A stretch of DNA of 25,261 nt from a virus. Positions 4,504-20,463 of this stretch are shown one piece after another; within the stretch, counting starts at the first letter, position 1; each line of letters starts with the position of its first letter. The position numbers and the translations under genes are program-made. The notes below the pieces were generated by a model. The model had not been told where the DNA came from. It saw only the letters and a program-made list of their open reading frames with translations, and searched no databases. The DNA is taken from positions 1-25,261 of the IMG/VR virus record IMGVR_UViG_3300020183_000424; one strand, written 5' to 3'.

Positions 4504-6150
4504 GTGGCACAAAATTTTGCGACTACACCGGAAGAAGTTTACGATGTGTTGACTGGCGACAGTGAATTCATGTCATATGTTGGCGAATATACTTTTACTA
4601 TTGGAAATGCAAAATTTCCATCAGTTACCGTAAGTACTCCAGGTGCCGATCTGCCCAGTTTAAAGTCGCAAAGCGGTCTTGAGGTAATCATTCATGATGC
4701 TGCTGACATCTCAAGAACCGATTATTTAACAAGCGATTCGGATCTAAATGTTACGTGGAAGGTATTTTTCATTGTCTGGGAACCTGCTACCGGATTGACG
4801 ATGACAAATGCTGTGAAGCGTGCGATGGCAATATTTGGCGGATCACGCTCGATTGAGACTGTTGCGGTTGCCGATGGTTTACAGGCCAAGGTTCAAACAT
4901 TACTGCAAATTCCGAGCACGGCTCCAATTTTGACAGTATCAAATAATTATATCGACATAACCGAGCAACCAGAAAATCAGTCAGTCGAAGTGGGCGACAG
5001 CGTTACCTTTGAAGTCGTGGCAGTTACTTATGATGGCGGGACATTGAGTTACCAGTGGCAGCGGAGTACCGGAAGCGGATTTAGTAATATTTCGGGAGCG
5101 ACAAATGCAACTCGCACTTTTACCGTAAATAATCTGTCGGAGGATGATGATCAATACCGTTGTGTGGTCAGTAGTAGTGGTACAGCGCCAAGCGTTACAT
5201 CTAATGCAGCCACATTGACTGTCGAAGATGGCGGTGGAGGAGGTGGTGACGACGGATTGATTACAATTACTCTACAACCACAAAACACCGAAGTAGTCGT
5301 AGGAGACGAAGCAACGTTTGAGGTGGCCGCCGAAACAAGTGATGGTGGGAACCTGGGGTATCAATGGCAGCGTAGTACTGGTGGTGGTTTCAGTAACATT
5401 TCCGGTGCCAACAGTGATACATACGTATTTACAGTAGATAACATTTCAGAAGACGACGATCAGTATCGATGTGTTGTTTCCAGTGATGCGACAGCTCCCG
5501 ACGTAAATTCCAATGCGGCAGTTCTTACCGTCACAGAAGATGGTGGTGGTGACGACGGATTGATTACAATCACCTTGCAACCTGAAAATGCCGAAGTAAT
5601 CGTAGGAGATGCAGCAACGTTTATAATTGCTGCTGAAACAAGTGACGGTGGTAATTTAAGTTATCAATGGCAGATTGATACTGGAAGTGGATTCGGAAAT
5701 ATTTCCGGTGCCACCAGTGATACTTACACCTTTACCGTAATAAATGTTTCAGAAAATGACAATAAATACCGTTGTATTGTTTCCAGTGATGCTACCGCTC
5801 CAAGTGTAAATTCCAATGCGGCAGTTCTTACCGTCACAGAAGATGGTGGTGGCGGCGGTGAGGGATTAATTACAATTACTTTACAACCTGAAAGTATTGA
5901 GGCAATTGTCGATGATGAAATTGTTTTTGAAGTTGCCGCTGAGACAAGCGATGGTGGTAATTTAAGTTATCAATGGCAGCGTAGTACTGGTGGTGATTTT
6001 AACAATATTTCCGGTGCCACCAGTGATACTTACACCTTTACCGTAACAAGCATTTCGGAAGATGGCGATGAATACCGTTGCGTTGTTTCCAGCGACGCGA
6101 CAGCTCCAAGTGTAAATTCCGATGTGGCAGTACTAACCGTAACCGAGTAA
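4504..6150 (+). CDS. Tail-terminator-like protein with four Ig-like domains
   Basis: A 548-residue protein starting at GTG 4504. Residues 1-140 look like a tail terminator subunit (PEEVYDVLTGDSEFMSYVG, PSVTVSTPGADLP, VTWKVFFIVWEP, then a helix NAVKRAMAIFGG). This ring protein caps the tail tube and contacts the neck. Residues 150-548 are four Ig-like (I-set-like) domains separated by Gly/Asp linkers such as EDGGGGGGDDG. Each has the YQWQ tryptophan strand and a YRCVVSS strand with one cysteine; the partner cysteine is replaced (TFEVVA), so no intradomain disulphide is expected. Surface Ig-like domains on virions are thought to aid weak binding to cell surfaces. The terminator assignment is by pattern and order and is less certain than the Ig assignment. 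Confidence 0.8.
   Translation: MAQNFATTPEEVYDVLTGDSEFMSYVGEYTFTIGNAKFPSVTVSTPGADLPSLKSQSGLEVIIHDAADISRTDYLTSDSDLNVTWKVFFIVWEPATGLTMTNAVKRAMAIFGGSRSIETVAVADGLQAKVQTLLQIPSTAPILTVSNNYIDITEQPENQSVEVGDSVTFEVVAVTYDGGTLSYQWQRSTGSGFSNISGATNATRTFTVNNLSEDDDQYRCVVSSSGTAPSVTSNAATLTVEDGGGGGGDDGLITITLQPQNTEVVVGDEATFEVAAETSDGGNLGYQWQRSTGGGFSNISGANSDTYVFTVDNISEDDDQYRCVVSSDATAPDVNSNAAVLTVTEDGGGDDGLITITLQPENAEVIVGDAATFIIAAETSDGGNLSYQWQIDTGSGFGNISGATSDTYTFTVINVSENDNKYRCIVSSDATAPSVNSNAAVLTVTEDGGGGGEGLITITLQPESIEAIVDDEIVFEVAAETSDGGNLSYQWQRSTGGDFNNISGATSDTYTFTVTSISEDGDEYRCVVSSDATAPSVNSDVAVLTVTE
4951..6147 (+). repeat. Four tandem Ig-like domain repeats, about 300 bp each
   Basis: Units lie at about 4951-5223, 5257-5538, 5560-5841 and 5866-6147, with 20-34-base glycine-linker segments between them. 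Units 2 to 4 share long near-identical stretches, including the linker region and the strand encoding VVSSDATAP, so they are recent duplications or subject to recombination. Unit 1 is the most diverged. This coding repeat can change copy number. Confidence 0.85.
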
Positions 6151-6177: not shown

Positions 6178-6210
6178 CTCTAATTTGGCTTGGTTGGTAA
6201 TATAAAAGTA

Positions 6211-6253
6211 GCAGGGTAGCCTGCTTATGACCATTGCCCTAGGACTCTACCCT
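6211..6253 (+). promoter_or_regulatory. Tail-tube leader with two competing hairpins
   Basis: GCAGG-GTAG-CCTGC (6211-6224) forms one hairpin. AGGGTAG (6213-6219) also pairs perfectly with CTACCCT (6247-6253), and the two cannot coexist. Such alternatives are typical of regulated or stability-determining leaders. Confidence 0.45.
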
Positions 6254-6264
6254 AGCTAATTTCT

Positions 6265-6864
6265 ATGGCTAATTACTCGGCTGCTTTTGGCTATGACGTT
6301 TTCATTGTGCCGCTGGCGGCGGGCAGTGTTGATGTCGATTTTACTGGCGTGACCGCTGGCATCAGCAACAGTGGTGGTTTTATCAATATTACCACGCTCG
6401 TTACTCCTAGCGATAGTGTGGCGTATGCTGGTGCGGAGTTCACCGTTGATGGTGCCGCCTTCGATATGGACGGGACGGATAATCCCGCTCGTCTGTATGG
6501 TTTAACTAATGCATCCCTAGAGACCGATACCAACTCTGAGGATGTGGTGACTTACGACAACGAAACAAAAGGTTTCAATGTCTCGATTCCGACTTCCAAG
6601 TCTTGGAGCATCTCGCTGGCTGGCGTAGCTGACTTCAAAGATGCTGGCTATCAGATCCTACGTCTGACCGAGCAAAACACCGTTGCCGATGCCCTGCGCG
6701 TGAAGTTCGTGCGTCGCGGTCCCACGGGCACCGACGAGACCGTGTATGGCTACGGCACTCTGACTGGCTATACCGAATCCATTGAGGCCGGTTCGATCGT
6801 GTCCTGGGAAGCCACCGTGGTGGGCTATGGCCCATATCGTATTGACCTGGACGTGAACTCCTGA
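6265..6864 (+). CDS. Major tail tube protein
   Basis: A 199-residue beta-rich protein immediately before the tape measure gene, as expected for the hexameric tube subunit of a long non-contractile tail. It begins MANYSAAFGYDVFIVPLAAG and ends with a strand-rich block (GYGTLTGYTESIEAGSIVSWEATVVGYGPYRIDL) like that of tail tube proteins of the TP901-1/lambda gpV type. No Ig domain is attached; those are on the preceding gene. It has its own long leader and terminator. Its codons favour C/G endings (CTG, GGC, GAC, TCC), unlike the AT-leaning neighbours, consistent with very high expression. No sheath gene follows, so the virion is probably a siphovirus. Confidence 0.82.
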   Translation: MANYSAAFGYDVFIVPLAAGSVDVDFTGVTAGISNSGGFINITTLVTPSDSVAYAGAEFTVDGAAFDMDGTDNPARLYGLTNASLETDTNSEDVVTYDNETKGFNVSIPTSKSWSISLAGVADFKDAGYQILRLTEQNTVADALRVKFVRRGPTGTDETVYGYGTLTGYTESIEAGSIVSWEATVVGYGPYRIDLDVNS

Positions 6865-11292: not shown

Positions 11293-11709
11293 ATGAGTAT
11301 TACGTTGAGTTATACGCAGCAAACTGGCGTCTCCACGGAGTACACTGTTGTATTTAACTTTTTTGGTGATCAAAACGTTCCTAGGAGTTACGTCGAAGAA
11401 GGAAACTTTTCATTTAGTCAAAGTGGAACAGCAATCAAAGGTGGTCCAGCTCGCAGTCCACGTCGAATTTGGGGATTCACCGGGCTACTGACACGATCGG
11501 AAGCAGAAGATCTTGATGGATTGTATAATGCATGGGCCACGGATTCGGGCCAGGGCATCTCCTCAGTCGTTGCCTTAGACGATAGTACATTTGGAACTAC
11601 TACATTACAGGTTTATGCTGTAATCACTACTGCACCATCTTTTTCAATTTTTGGACCAAATCATTATTTATGTTCAATTGGCCTGACTGAAGTTGGCCTG
11701 CAAACTTGA
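11293..11709 (+). CDS. Minor tail / distal-tail-like protein
   Basis: A 138-residue beta-rich protein directly after the tape measure and before the hub-like protein, the position of a distal tail or lambda gpM-like minor tail protein. It contains a motif-like stretch (PARSPRRIWGFTGLLTRSEAEDLDGLYNAW) in which a helix follows strands, and ends with strands around the tail-tip interface (FGPNHYLCSIGLTEVGLQT). No catalytic motif. Ring-forming tail-tip proteins are typically this small or somewhat larger. Function by position and fold impression. Confidence 0.7.
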   Translation: MSITLSYTQQTGVSTEYTVVFNFFGDQNVPRSYVEEGNFSFSQSGTAIKGGPARSPRRIWGFTGLLTRSEAEDLDGLYNAWATDSGQGISSVVALDDSTFGTTTLQVYAVITTAPSFSIFGPNHYLCSIGLTEVGLQT

Positions 11710-16697: not shown

Positions 16698-17546
16698 ATG
16701 ACAGCAACTCCAGACATCATCAGGTTAAAGTATAGTTCTGATGGTGATGCTGCGATTCGTGCTGCTATTGCAACCAGTGGCACTGATCCAATTACCACTG
16801 GGGAACTTGTTGTTGGCATTGAGGATTTCAGAGTTAGACTGTATTCAAAAGATGCTACGGGTAGAATTGTAGAGGCTGTTTCGGGAACAAGTCCGCCAAC
16901 GATTGACGGGGGTGATTTCAATACTGCATTTCCAGTGCTTAATATTGGCGATGTTTATGGCGGTGGTTATTATGGTGGATTGATTTCATTCAGTGAAAAT
17001 TATGTTGCAACGCATGCATTAATCGTCAGTCCAAAAGACGTTGGTGAATTTAATTTACAATATAAAACGACAAACACTGCAGAAGCAGGTGCTGCTAGCG
17101 ACAAGGATGGATACGCGAATACGCAAAATGTAAACGATATAAATCATCCGGCGGCTCAATATGCACGAACCTTAAATATCTCTGGTTATACAGATTGGTA
17201 TATCCCCTCTAGGTTTGAACTGGATATTTTATATTATTATTTAAAGCCTTCAACAGCAGCAAATAGCACTTCGAAAACATTTGTAAATACGATCGCAATG
17301 ACAGATCCGCCAAGAAATGAATACACTGCATCAAATCCCTTAAGAACAAGTGCAACAGTATTTCAGACTGGGGAATCCCAAGTTTTTATTCCGTTAGTAG
17401 GTGCCTTTGCTACGTATTATGGTAGTAGTACACAGGTTACTGGTTCTACGACTATCCGCAGTCAAACATTTCACAATAGTACATACGCGACTTCCGGTTT
17501 TACTGCAACCACAAGATTTCGCGCAATTAGGAAAATTGCCCTGTAG
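16698..17546 (+). CDS. Tail protein with Lcl/DUF1566-like domain, candidate receptor binder
   Basis: 282 residues. Residues 1-75 form an N-terminal attachment region (GELVVGIEDFRVRLYSKDATG). From about residue 83 there is an Lcl/DUF1566-like domain: DVYGGGYYGGLISFSENY, HALIVSPKDVGEF, then SGYTDWYIPSRFELDILYYY, and a C-terminal TTRFRAIRKI strand. This domain has a C-type-lectin-like fold in known examples and occurs in surface and adhesin proteins. It is a good candidate for host-surface recognition at the tail tip. Expected features such as a cysteine pair are absent. Domain call from the GYTDWY-P-S pattern and the GG-loop. Confidence 0.75.
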   Translation: MTATPDIIRLKYSSDGDAAIRAAIATSGTDPITTGELVVGIEDFRVRLYSKDATGRIVEAVSGTSPPTIDGGDFNTAFPVLNIGDVYGGGYYGGLISFSENYVATHALIVSPKDVGEFNLQYKTTNTAEAGAASDKDGYANTQNVNDINHPAAQYARTLNISGYTDWYIPSRFELDILYYYLKPSTAANSTSKTFVNTIAMTDPPRNEYTASNPLRTSATVFQTGESQVFIPLVGAFATYYGSSTQVTGSTTIRSQTFHNSTYATSGFTATTRFRAIRKIAL

Positions 17547-17573: not shown

Positions 17574-17942
17574 ATGATTAACAGTATCCATGACTTAGCG
17601 TATTTAAATGACGACGGCAGCGAGGTGCTGCCGATGGGTCCATGCAGTGCTTGGCCAATAAGTCGCAACAGACCTGGGCCAGGAATCATGGGTAAGAAAG
17701 TTCAATATCAAGCCACTGAAGTGAAGGCGACTGTTGGCGAGATGGCACATAATTTATTCAAGACGGGAATTTCGGCCATTAAAGACGGCAAATTAAATCA
17801 CGAACAGCGAAACGATCGATACGCAAAGTGTTTGGAATGTCCTTTGTTTATTGCTGACTCAAAGCGCTGTTCCGAGTGCGGTTGTTTTATGGAGGCAAAG
17901 ACATGGATCAAGGGTGCTTCATGCCCTGTTGGGAAGTGGTAA
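17574..17942 (+). CDS. Small cysteine-cluster protein
   Basis: 122 residues. The C-terminal third has a compact cysteine pattern (YAKCLECPLF, then KRCSECGCFMEAKTW and a final ASCPVGKW), fitting a zinc-ribbon-like fold that recurs in phage and cyanobacterial small proteins. Residues 1-60 are proline/glycine-rich and may be a flexible tether (ISRNRPGPGIMGKK). It lies among tail-tip genes, ending one base before the next start (17944), so the two are coupled. Possible roles are zinc-bound structural subunit or assembly factor. No function is assigned. Confidence 0.65.
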   Translation: MINSIHDLAYLNDDGSEVLPMGPCSAWPISRNRPGPGIMGKKVQYQATEVKATVGEMAHNLFKTGISAIKDGKLNHEQRNDRYAKCLECPLFIADSKRCSECGCFMEAKTWIKGASCPVGKW

Positions 17943-18453: not shown

Positions 18454-18488
18454 TTGGCATACTAGCACGCACTATGGCGTGATGCCAA
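18454..18488 (+). promoter_or_regulatory. Structured leader element of scaffold gene
   Basis: TTGGCAT (18454-18460) pairs with ATGCCAA (18482-18488). Inside, CACGC (18466-18470) pairs with GCGTG (18477-18481), and the loop is ACTATG. The motif remnant ACTAG (18461-18465) is a 5-base bulge. The full stem is 12 bp and ends 3 bases before ATG 18492, so it would cover the ribosome landing site. It also contains an exact GGCATACTAG (18456-18465). Confidence 0.65.
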
Positions 18489-18491
18489 AAA

Positions 18492-19208
18492 ATGGAAGAT
18501 CAGGAACTGAAGGCACCTGAGATGGGAGCCGATCAGGTTGCCACTGGTAACAAAAACTATAGCGAAGACGAAGTTCAAAATTTACTCAAGGCGTTAAAGT
18601 CCGAACGAGAAGCACGTAAAACGCTTGAGCGTCAAACCAAAGACTATGAAAGTCAGTTAAGTAAATTTGCACAAATTAATCCTGACGAATATCAAAAACT
18701 TCAGGAAGAAGCCGCTGCCGCTGCTGCAGCAAAGGCTGCCGCCGATGAGCGGACCAATTTACTTGAAGAGAAGTATGGCTCACAGGCTGCTGAGGCTGCA
18801 AAAGTTGCGGAATCGGCTCGCAAAGAATTGCAAGAATTTCGCAAGCGATATTCGCTTGAAAAGGTATTCTTTTCTGCAGGTGGTCGTACCGATTCGGCCG
18901 ATAATGTGTCATTCTTTGACATGCTTGCAGCGCAGATCGGCAACCAGTTTCGCCTTGAGAATGACGGCAGTTTAACTGTTGTTGATTCTGCAGGTGATCC
19001 TGTACTCGATAAGGAATCAGGCAAACGCATTGATCCCGAATCTTATTTGACCACCTTCAAAAATCACCCAATTTATGGAACTTTCTTCAAGGGGGCCAAG
19101 GGCTCTGGTGCTGGTATTGGCTATGGTGGCACTGATGCCAATGGGATCCCGGGCGAGGACTTGAATTCTATGAGTCGTGAAGAACTGTTCCTAAAGGCAT
19201 TTGGTTAA
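18492..19208 (+). CDS. Capsid scaffolding protein
   Basis: 238 residues with a long charged coiled coil (about 25-125: SEDEVQNLLKALKSEREARKTLERQ, then an alanine-rich EEAAAAAAAKAAADE stretch) and a smaller C-terminal domain (FFDMLAAQIGNQFRLENDG, then GYGGTDANGIPGEDLNSMSREELF). This layout matches scaffold proteins (SPP1 gp11/GP20-like) that guide capsid assembly and are then lost. It lies directly upstream of the capsid gene, and the capsid protein has no N-terminal scaffold domain of its own, so a separate scaffold is expected. The hairpin ending 3 bases before its start may limit translation relative to capsid protein. Confidence 0.82.
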   Translation: MEDQELKAPEMGADQVATGNKNYSEDEVQNLLKALKSEREARKTLERQTKDYESQLSKFAQINPDEYQKLQEEAAAAAAAKAAADERTNLLEEKYGSQAAEAAKVAESARKELQEFRKRYSLEKVFFSAGGRTDSADNVSFFDMLAAQIGNQFRLENDGSLTVVDSAGDPVLDKESGKRIDPESYLTTFKNHPIYGTFFKGAKGSGAGIGYGGTDANGIPGEDLNSMSREELFLKAFG

Positions 19209-19258
19209 TTAAAGAAAATGCCTCAAGTTTCAATAAGCTAATTTCTTATTAAAGAAAG

Positions 19259-19283
19259 ACCGGCCCAAGTGGCCGGTTTTTTG
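19259..19283 (+). terminator. Rho-independent terminator after scaffold gene
   Basis: ACCGGCC, loop CAAGT, GGCCGGT, then six T. A 7-bp GC-rich stem. Confidence 0.9.
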
Positions 19284-19310
19284 TTATTTCTTTTGGTATA
19301 GATCAAACTC

Positions 19311-19393
19311 TTGGCATACTAGGTAGACAACACCCGAAGCTAGTGGACGTGATGTCACGGGCAGGGTGTTCCGACGTTCGGGCGTGATGCCAA
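19311..19393 (+). promoter_or_regulatory. Structured leader element of capsid gene
   Basis: Same outer elements as at 18454: TTGGCAT (19311-19317), the motif GGCATACTAG (19313-19322), and GGCGTGATGCCAA at the end (ATGCCAA 19387-19393). The interior is expanded: AACACCC (19329-19335) pairs with GGGTGTT (19364-19370), CGTG with CACG (19348-19359), and alternatively CCCGAA (19333-19338) with TTCGGG (19377-19382). The first and third compete. Confidence 0.6.
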
Positions 19394-19435
19394 CGTAGTT
19401 TCACCTAGCTATTCGCTCATCCTTCCACTAGAAAA

Positions 19436-20347
19436 ATGGCTCTTACTCTTGCGGAGGCTAAAAAGCACTCCACAAATCCTCAGGAACGCGCAATCGTTAC
19501 TGAACTTGCCGCTGGCTCCCTGCTCAGCGTCCTTCCCTTCCGTGAAATCCAAGGCAACGGTTTGTTCTGGAAGCGTGAAGAGTCTCTCGGCGATGTGGGT
19601 TTCCGTCAGTTTAACGCTGGCTATGAAGAGACCTATGCCGAGGTGAAGCAACAGTCCGAAAGCCTGAAGCTCTTTGGTGGCGACATCAAGGTTGATCGCG
19701 CCATTGTCGATCTGGAGGGCCCCGAGGCTCGCGCTTACCAGATCCAAGCCAAGACCCGCGCAATGCGCCTGGCCTGGGAAGCTCTGTTTATCAACGGTGA
19801 CTCCAACAGCACCGCTGCTGAATTCGATGGTCTGGCGACCCGCCTGCCCGCTGCCGCTTACGCCACCAACTCCCAGGTGATCCGTAACGCTTCCAGCGCC
19901 TCTGCCCTTGATCTGGGCGCTCTGGACGAGGCCATCGATGCTGTCGATGCCCAGGGTGGTAGCAAGTATCTGGTCATGTCAAAGTCGGCTCGCCGTCACC
20001 TGACCAAGCGTGCTCGCCTGTCGGCTCAGATCGACATCATGCGGAACGAGTTCGGCTACCAGCAAATGGTGTATGCCGGCCTGCCCGTGATCGAACTGGA
20101 TCGCGACCATCAGAACGTGGCCATCCTAGACGGCACTCCCGCTAACCAGTCGATCTACGTGGTGGCCTTCGGCAATGACTTGCTGACCGGCATCCAGAAT
20201 GGTGGTGTGCAGGTGCGTGACCTGGGTGAGGATACCGCTTCCCCGACCCTGGTGACCCGCGTGGAGTGGTATTGCGGCCTTGCTTTAGTGAATGGCCGTG
20301 CCGCTGCTCGCCTCACCAACGTTGACTCGACCGCCGCTGTTTCCTGA
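19436..20347 (+). CDS. Major capsid protein, HK97-like fold
   Basis: 303 residues. Features are an N-terminal helix (LTLAEAKKHSTNPQERAIVTEL), an E-loop-like stretch rich in charge (FWKREESLGDVGFRQFNAGYEETYAEV), a long helix with ALDLGALDEAIDAVDAQGG, then KYLVMSKSARRHLTKRAR and the A-domain-like FGYQQMVYAGLPVIELDRD, ending in strands (TLVTRVEWYCGLALVNGRAAARL). The KYLVMSKSA and YAGLPVI patterns are typical of compact HK97-fold capsid proteins. No N-terminal scaffold domain is present, consistent with the scaffold gene upstream. Codons are strongly C/G-ending (CTG, GCC, CGC, ATC), unlike neighbours, as for the tail tube gene. It has its own structured leader and terminator. Confidence 0.88.
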   Translation: MALTLAEAKKHSTNPQERAIVTELAAGSLLSVLPFREIQGNGLFWKREESLGDVGFRQFNAGYEETYAEVKQQSESLKLFGGDIKVDRAIVDLEGPEARAYQIQAKTRAMRLAWEALFINGDSNSTAAEFDGLATRLPAAAYATNSQVIRNASSASALDLGALDEAIDAVDAQGGSKYLVMSKSARRHLTKRARLSAQIDIMRNEFGYQQMVYAGLPVIELDRDHQNVAILDGTPANQSIYVVAFGNDLLTGIQNGGVQVRDLGEDTASPTLVTRVEWYCGLALVNGRAAARLTNVDSTAAVS

Positions 20348-20370: not shown

Positions 20371-20392
20371 AAGCCCCTTCGGGGGCTTTTTT
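20371..20392 (+). terminator. Rho-independent terminator after capsid gene
   Basis: GCCCC, loop TTCG, GGGGC, flanked by AA and six T. A stable UUCG tetraloop hairpin. Confidence 0.92.
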
Positions 20393-20393
20393 A

Positions 20394-20420
20394 TTGGCAA
20401 CCTACTGTGAGTCGCGCCAA
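20394..20420 (+). promoter_or_regulatory. TTGGC...GCCAA leader element of decoration gene
   Basis: TTGGC (20394-20398) pairs with GCCAA (20416-20420), enclosing a weak motif GGCAACCTAC (20396-20405). It looks like a reduced version of the scaffold and capsid leader elements, 43 bases before the next ATG. Confidence 0.4.
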
Positions 20421-20463
20421 CTCTCTGCGGGGCGGGCTCTGTTAACCTAACTGGATTACTACC

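Follow-up and report, generated by a model that had tools for sequence, protein, structure and literature searches.

The scaffold and major capsid protein genes of the phage genome analyzed here are preceded by leaders that begin and end alike, which raises the question of what element the two leaders have in common and what it might do for head genes. The window (the whole stretch of DNA that was analyzed, an IMG/VR record of 25,261 bases) represents a cyanobacterial siphophage of the Synechococcus phage S-CBS2 type, with a major capsid protein 70.7% identical to that of S-CBS2 and 50.5% identical to the capsid protein of cyanophage PSS2. The preliminary description had quoted TTGGCATACTAG and GGCGTGATGCCAA as the two ends of both leaders, and these ends do exist, the former at 18454 and 19311 and the latter at 18476 and 19381. 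We compared 80 capsid-gene loci from IMG/VR and those of five annotated cyanophages, adding more distant phages later. The genes and transcription signals of the region are as follows:

18454..18464, + strand: predicted -10 element of the scaffold-gene late promoter (TTGGCATACTA), an element that recurs before genes of relatives
18492..19208, + strand: head scaffolding protein gene, 238 aa (phrog_206, E=9e-26)
19254..19289, + strand: intrinsic terminator between the scaffold and capsid genes
19311..19321, + strand: predicted -10 element of the capsid-gene late promoter (TTGGCATACTA), with the RNA start predicted near 19326
19436..20347, + strand: major capsid protein gene, 303 aa (phrog_212, E=4e-74)
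20371..20392, + strand: intrinsic terminator 3' of the capsid gene

Shared leader ends and a predicted late promoter

We infer that the left end, TTGGCATACTAG, belongs to a late promoter as its -10 part and that RNA begins a few bases downstream of it, because TNGGNANNNTA recurs 24-35 nt before genes of relatives far above expectation. In the complete genomes of S-CBS2 and S-CRES1, it is found at this distance from 24 of 186 genes, against 0.9 expected, and many of the genes carrying it are structural. On the + strand of the window, TNGGNANNNTA sites lie at 17544, 18454, 19311, 20394, 13958, 11263 and other positions, about 30 nt before start codons. The element, GGNANNNT, precedes the capsid leader in all 79 cyanophage contig leaders examined, spelled TTGGCATACTAG in the window and GGTATTCTAAG or GGAATTATATG elsewhere, and is also kept upstream of the scaffold genes examined. 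Phages of the S-CBS2/S-CRES1 type encode two sigma factors, one of which adjoins the terminase and bears a SigF or type III annotation; a SigF-like sigma factor may be the reader of the late promoter element.

The left end had been read instead as one strand of an outer stem, TTGGCAT pairing with ATGCCAA in both leaders. As the element is also present at 17544 with no matching right end, TTGGCAT is better understood as promoter. Full 7-bp pairing occurs in 4 of the 58 unique capsid leaders, three of these from the window and the two relatives closest to it, and the paired positions change without compensation. An RNA stem or DNA operator formed by TTGGCAT...ATGCCAA could claim the perfect complementarity that the window shares with its two nearest relatives, but its left half is the predicted promoter element, found also at genes devoid of the right half, and 54 of 58 leaders lack the full pairing; we give this reading almost no credence. 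Conservation rules out not only the outer stem but also two further proposals, a reduced relative (TTGGC/GCCAA) before the decoration gene, whose TTGGC at 20394 is the promoter again, and a CCCGAA/TTCGGG alternative pairing in the capsid leader, which the two nearest relatives can no longer form; TTCGGG is replaced by TTTCGG in locus L004 and by TTATGG in locus L005.

Other features of the window were recorded alongside this analysis. Downstream of the capsid gene, the next gene has a second structured leader (20394-20463), with a conserved GAGUCGCGCC...CUGCGGGGCGGGCUC stem present also in L004, L005, L083 and S-CBS2. The gene at 6265, likely encoding the major tail protein, has a leader (6194-6264) with an AGCAGG-GUAG-CCUGCU hairpin; a CUACCCU further downstream is complementary to the loop and 5' arm of this hairpin, allowing an H-type pseudoknot or a switch, and positions 11420-11481 of S-CBS2 have the same layout in different letters (AGGGACUA/UAGUCCCU). 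Upstream of the scaffold region, 17574-17942 encodes a DUF6171 protein whose C-terminal end is rich in cysteines, and the S-CRES1 scaffold gene is preceded by a protein with a similar C-terminal end. By eye, 18492-20347 combines a GC-rich capsid gene with AT-rich neighbors, and the protein encoded at 4504-6150 contains tandem repeats of about 100 codons that look Ig-like, with a DNA identity of 67-80%.

A pentaloop hairpin upstream of scaffold and capsid genes

What the leaders share lies inside the right end, where a GGC-GUGAU-GCC hairpin sits at both loci (18475-18487 and 19381-19391). The conserved element is an RNA hairpin of 13-17 nt with a pentaloop of the form G-N-G-A-N, mostly GUGAU or GAGAC and usually with Y in last position. 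Its instances in the window are:

18475..18487, + strand: scaffold operator hairpin UGGC-GUGAU-GCCA, a candidate operator, 4 nt before the ATG at 18492
19346..19356, + strand: capsid leader hairpin H1, GAC-GUGAU-GUC
19381..19391, + strand: capsid leader hairpin H2, GGC-GUGAU-GCC

Leader sets from 58 cyanophage capsid, 62 cyanophage scaffold and 83 distant-clade capsid genes lend support to the proposal that a single RNA family stands before scaffold and capsid genes and governs how they are expressed, although the element had been misidentified and the GNGAN hairpin takes its place. In the scaffold leader only the inner hairpin is conserved; the CACGC/GCGTG stem drawn there falls away, its bases lying at or before the predicted RNA start.

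Cyanophage capsid leaders (58 unique) present two GNGAN hairpins with a middle strand, GGGU or GGGG, between them, located further upstream of the start codon than the single GNGAN hairpin found upstream of cyanophage scaffold genes. Examples of the latter include UAGGC-GUGAU-GCCUA, AGGGA-GUGAU-UCCCU, GAGCA-GUGAU-UGCUC, CAGGG-GUGAU-CCCUG and CGGGU-GAGAU-ACCCG. The cyanophage scaffold hairpin starts 11-18 nt downstream of the promoter hexamer and, in 38 of 54 cases, ends 6-7 nt from the ATG. Because it is so near both, the scaffold mRNA leader is expected to be barely longer than the hairpin itself. Its stem, of only 4-6 bp, occupies the ribosome-binding site, where a Shine-Dalgarno sequence would be. 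A pattern scan of 2.9 million viral contigs for the promoter followed by GGC-GNGAY-GCC and an ATG, limited to the cyanophage clade by its promoter requirement, returned 28 loci, and all 26 of the 26 translated precede proteins with scaffold-type starts.

Among 64 classes of pentaloop, GNGAN ranks first in all three leader sets. The cyanophage capsid leaders (n=58) contain 93 GNGAN hairpins (shuffled mean 3.1, maximum 10), the cyanophage scaffold leaders (n=62) contain 54 (shuffled mean 0.7, maximum 3) and the distant-clade capsid leaders (n=83) contain 93 (shuffled mean 4.7, maximum 13). Any single change at G1, G3 or A4 nearly wipes out the hairpin count: in cyanophage capsid leaders, the counts are A1, C0, G93 and T0 for the first loop base (XNGAN), A1, C3, G93 and T2 for the third (GNXAN) and A93, C9, G1 and T3 for the fourth (GNGXN), while the fifth base is mostly a pyrimidine. 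Stems were counted on loop-anchored segments, since whole-leader MAFFT alignment was poor in the variable stems. Covariation scores in the three sets, from which identical rows were removed but whose sequences are related, so that counts are not independent events, reached 0.68, 0.75 and 0.61 against shuffled means of 0.20, 0.31 and 0.33; in each set 0 of 500 shuffles attained the observed score, and slid controls remained at or below 0.28. Segments were chosen as the best local stem with G1, G3 and A4 required, a choice that favors pairing and fixes the loop but does not explain the diversity of pair types, of which there are up to six per position; the unbiased test of the loop is provided by the 64-class and base-substitution counts.

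The idea that GUGAU pairs with AUCAC in the 16S tail was dropped, since GAGAC is a common loop and the second loop base is free to vary. In some leaders the 3' strand sequesters the Shine-Dalgarno sequence, but not consistently.

The hairpin is largely confined to scaffold and capsid genes. S-CBS2, S-CRES1 and PSS2 all (3/3) carry it between the late promoter and the start codon at both the scaffold and the capsid gene; among late-promoter leaders, S-CRES1 adds instances at the portal and major tail genes. Portal genes of S-CRES1-like phages have two GNGAN hairpins (L091 21457-21586, L120-L131), and none is found at the S-CBS2 candidate portal gene or at the portal gene of PAC9. The scaffold and capsid genes of PAC9 have the hairpin, the three other matches among its 87 genes being weak 4-bp stems, and it is otherwise rare in leaders of Mesyanzhinovviridae-clade genomes.

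In the Mesyanzhinovviridae and their relatives, GNGAN hairpins precede the capsid and scaffold genes even where these lie far apart. Capsid proteins of these distant phages are only 26-29% identical to that of the window, and the hosts belong to different phyla. Two capsid-leader hairpins are present in Pseudomonas phages PaMx28, ZQG1 and PAC9, Bordetella phage FP1 and Stenotrophomonas phage AXL_1, and one clear hairpin in the capsid leader of Ab20. The scaffold gene of PaMx28 (phrog_206, E=2e-46) is separated from its capsid gene by 3.4 kb and six reverse-strand genes, and its ATG is preceded by CGGGC-GAGAU-GCCCG and GCGC-GUGAC-GCGC in tandem; another distant-clade scaffold tandem consists of UGGAGGAGA-GUGAU-UCUCCUCCG followed by CGCCGG-GUGAU-CCGGCG. 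At least one hairpin of at least 4 pairs occurs in 71 of the 83 unique distant-clade capsid leaders, and at least one hairpin in 31 of 53 scaffold regions; no clear hairpin was seen in about 15% of the former and in 22 of the 53 latter. The pattern is absent from the phiCbK group, RcXuper, Rhizobium phage RHph_Y2_11, Leszy, Paenibacillus phage Scottie, Streptomyces phage AbbeyMikolon and Escherichia phage CMS-2020a. Because phiCbK, CcrBL9, RcXuper, Kikimora, Leszy and RHph_Y2_11 have no tandem GNGAN hairpins despite a homologous capsid protein and a phrog_206 scaffold, head proteins of this kind do not always need the element. Scaffold leaders of the phiCbK group (L133, L137, L146) contain a conserved ACGGGUCGU hairpin with the loop GGGUC (GCGAC-GGGUC-GUCGC), which may be a variant of the GNGAN operator.

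Alternative folds of the capsid leader

The preliminary description had also given the interior of the capsid leader two mutually exclusive pairings. One of them, AACACCC/GGGTGTT, is conserved and is here termed P1; in place of the other, the middle strand has a different second partner, downstream of H2. The strands involved are:

19329..19335, + strand: P1 5' strand, AACACCC, pairing with 19364-19370; its ACCC core is present in nearly all relatives
19364..19370, + strand: middle strand, GGGTGTT, partner of either the P1 5' strand or the P4 3' strand
19374..19396, + strand: P3 (ACG/CGT), closing H2 in the predicted fold
19402..19406, + strand: P4 3' strand, CACCT, from the predicted minimum-energy fold of the RNA from its predicted start and from the permutation test

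The two pairings of the middle strand exclude each other, P1 enclosing H1 and P4 enclosing H2. In nearly all cyanophage leaders both are possible, and their core bases barely vary. Strand-swap permutation, uncorrected for relatedness, lowered the P1 helix score both in the distant clade (3.8 sd) and in cyanophages (2.3 sd); the corresponding values for P4, also uncorrected for relatedness, were 3.5 sd in cyanophages and only 1 sd in the distant clade. For the window, L047 and L059, the minimum-energy fold predicted for the full leader comprises P4, P3 and H2. A switch between two folds is thus plausible for the capsid leader. In the predicted fold of the window, H1 also pairs at long range with the start region (CUAGUGGA/UCCACUAG), a contact that is not general.

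A candidate operator and its relation to known systems

Properties expected of a translational operator were found in these leaders: a hairpin in the translation initiation region of the scaffold gene, a loop specified base by base and a conserved stem structure. The invariant loop, the covarying stem, the position in the initiation region, the near restriction to capsid and scaffold genes and the occurrence in phages of unrelated hosts together argue for a protein-binding translational operator, and the way the element tracks the head module rather than the host makes a head protein the likeliest binder. We judge it somewhat likelier than even that the GNGAN hairpins form a set of translational operators for head genes bound by a head protein. 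In cyanophages, each target gene would have a separate late promoter, the scaffold mRNA beginning a few bases before a single hairpin in the ribosome-binding site and the capsid mRNA carrying two. A protein recognizing the loop would bind the hairpins and repress translation, activation being less likely, and repression would keep scaffold and capsid synthesis in proportion; through the element, the virus would probably be able to adjust the supply of its head-building proteins to one another. The binder would most likely be the phage capsid or scaffold protein, acting as an autogenous regulator, and on the capsid leader binding could favor one of the two folds. If a guess is made between the two proteins, the capsid protein is slightly favored, because across the distant clade its leader carries the hairpins more constantly. 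A fuller version, in which the capsid (or scaffold) protein is a sequence-specific RNA-binding repressor reading GNGAY on its own and its partner's mRNA, the capsid leader is a strand-exchange switch and the whole provides a general feedback on procapsid stoichiometry in cyanobacterial and proteobacterial phages, is put forward tentatively, as possible rather than probable.

The base-by-base conservation of the loop would equally suit an operator read by some other RNA-binding protein, either a conserved protein of the host or a small regulator made by the phage. RNA-binding proteins are shared among the hosts, all of them bacteria, and the hairpins shared by the portal genes of some phages would be compatible with a general regulator of head genes, but a general host regulator does not simply explain the near restriction to scaffold and capsid genes, and we consider this reading rather unlikely. 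Loops containing GGA, as in targets of CsrA/RsmA, are confined to GGGAN, which numbers 0 to 4 per leader set. The structured 5' end of the cyanophage capsid leader, on a gene with its own promoter and terminator, and the RNase III annotated in S-CRES1 bring to mind hairpins that stabilize or process the 5' ends of very abundant late mRNAs, shielding them from RNase E or RNase III or exposing them to cleavage, with no regulator involved. Stability would favor any strong loop, yet cyanophage capsid leaders have 13 GNRA tetraloops and 14 UNCG loops against 93 GNGAN, and the scaffold hairpin is a stem of only 4-6 bp placed in the ribosome-binding site; this explanation appears improbable.

Short hairpins with G-first pentaloops, sometimes in two copies, in phage leaders also recall lambda boxB, whose loops, GNRNA and likewise GNRA-like in shape, serve antitermination of long operons. 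Here, however, A nearly always fills loop position 4 and a pyrimidine usually fills position 5, and cyanophage scaffold hairpins adjoin start codons instead of standing at the head of long operons. Because the window capsid gene is enclosed by two terminators, one on each side, we regard an antitermination signal as highly unlikely. A metabolite riboswitch in the capsid leader, suggested by leader conservation and two exclusive folds, is scarcely credible given that Rfam yields no match, that the hairpin occurs alone before scaffold genes and that the targets are structural proteins.

A search of the window against Rfam 15 at the gathering threshold returned only a tRNA, and a permissive search of eleven relatives produced no match in the leader and one unrelated weak match outside it. 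No published description of a GNGAN head-gene hairpin was found in the open-access literature searched. The element is, from these searches, uncatalogued, although as a translational operator hairpin it would be of a kind already known. Phage T4 gp32 and gp43 exert autogenous translational control, gp32 through a pseudoknot on its own leader RNA, and these T4 regulators are replication proteins, not head proteins; GNGAN hairpins were not found in the parts of this account consulted (PMC3014915).

It has long been asked how tailed phages keep scaffold and capsid protein in balance, and we know of no general RNA site that serves this balance. In phage P22, the scaffold gene is reportedly controlled by its own product, after transcription. 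This autoregulation (Wyckoff and Casjens 1985, as cited in PMC5744158) is a precedent for the control proposed here. P22 is thus a tailed phage with a self-controlled scaffold gene, whereas here two genes share a defined hairpin. The GNGAN element offers a small, defined and testable site in many phages, including Pseudomonas phages that are tractable in the laboratory.

In RNA phages such as MS2, the coat protein reads a short hairpin at a start codon, coupling assembly to translation. If the best explanation holds, the GNGAN hairpin would resemble such an operator, being a start-codon hairpin presumptively read by a coat protein; the differences are a distinct loop, DNA phages whose capsid proteins we take to be HK97-type, and two or more target genes. 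Should the capsid or scaffold protein prove to bind it, the assembly of tailed phages would be coupled to translation as it is in RNA phages.
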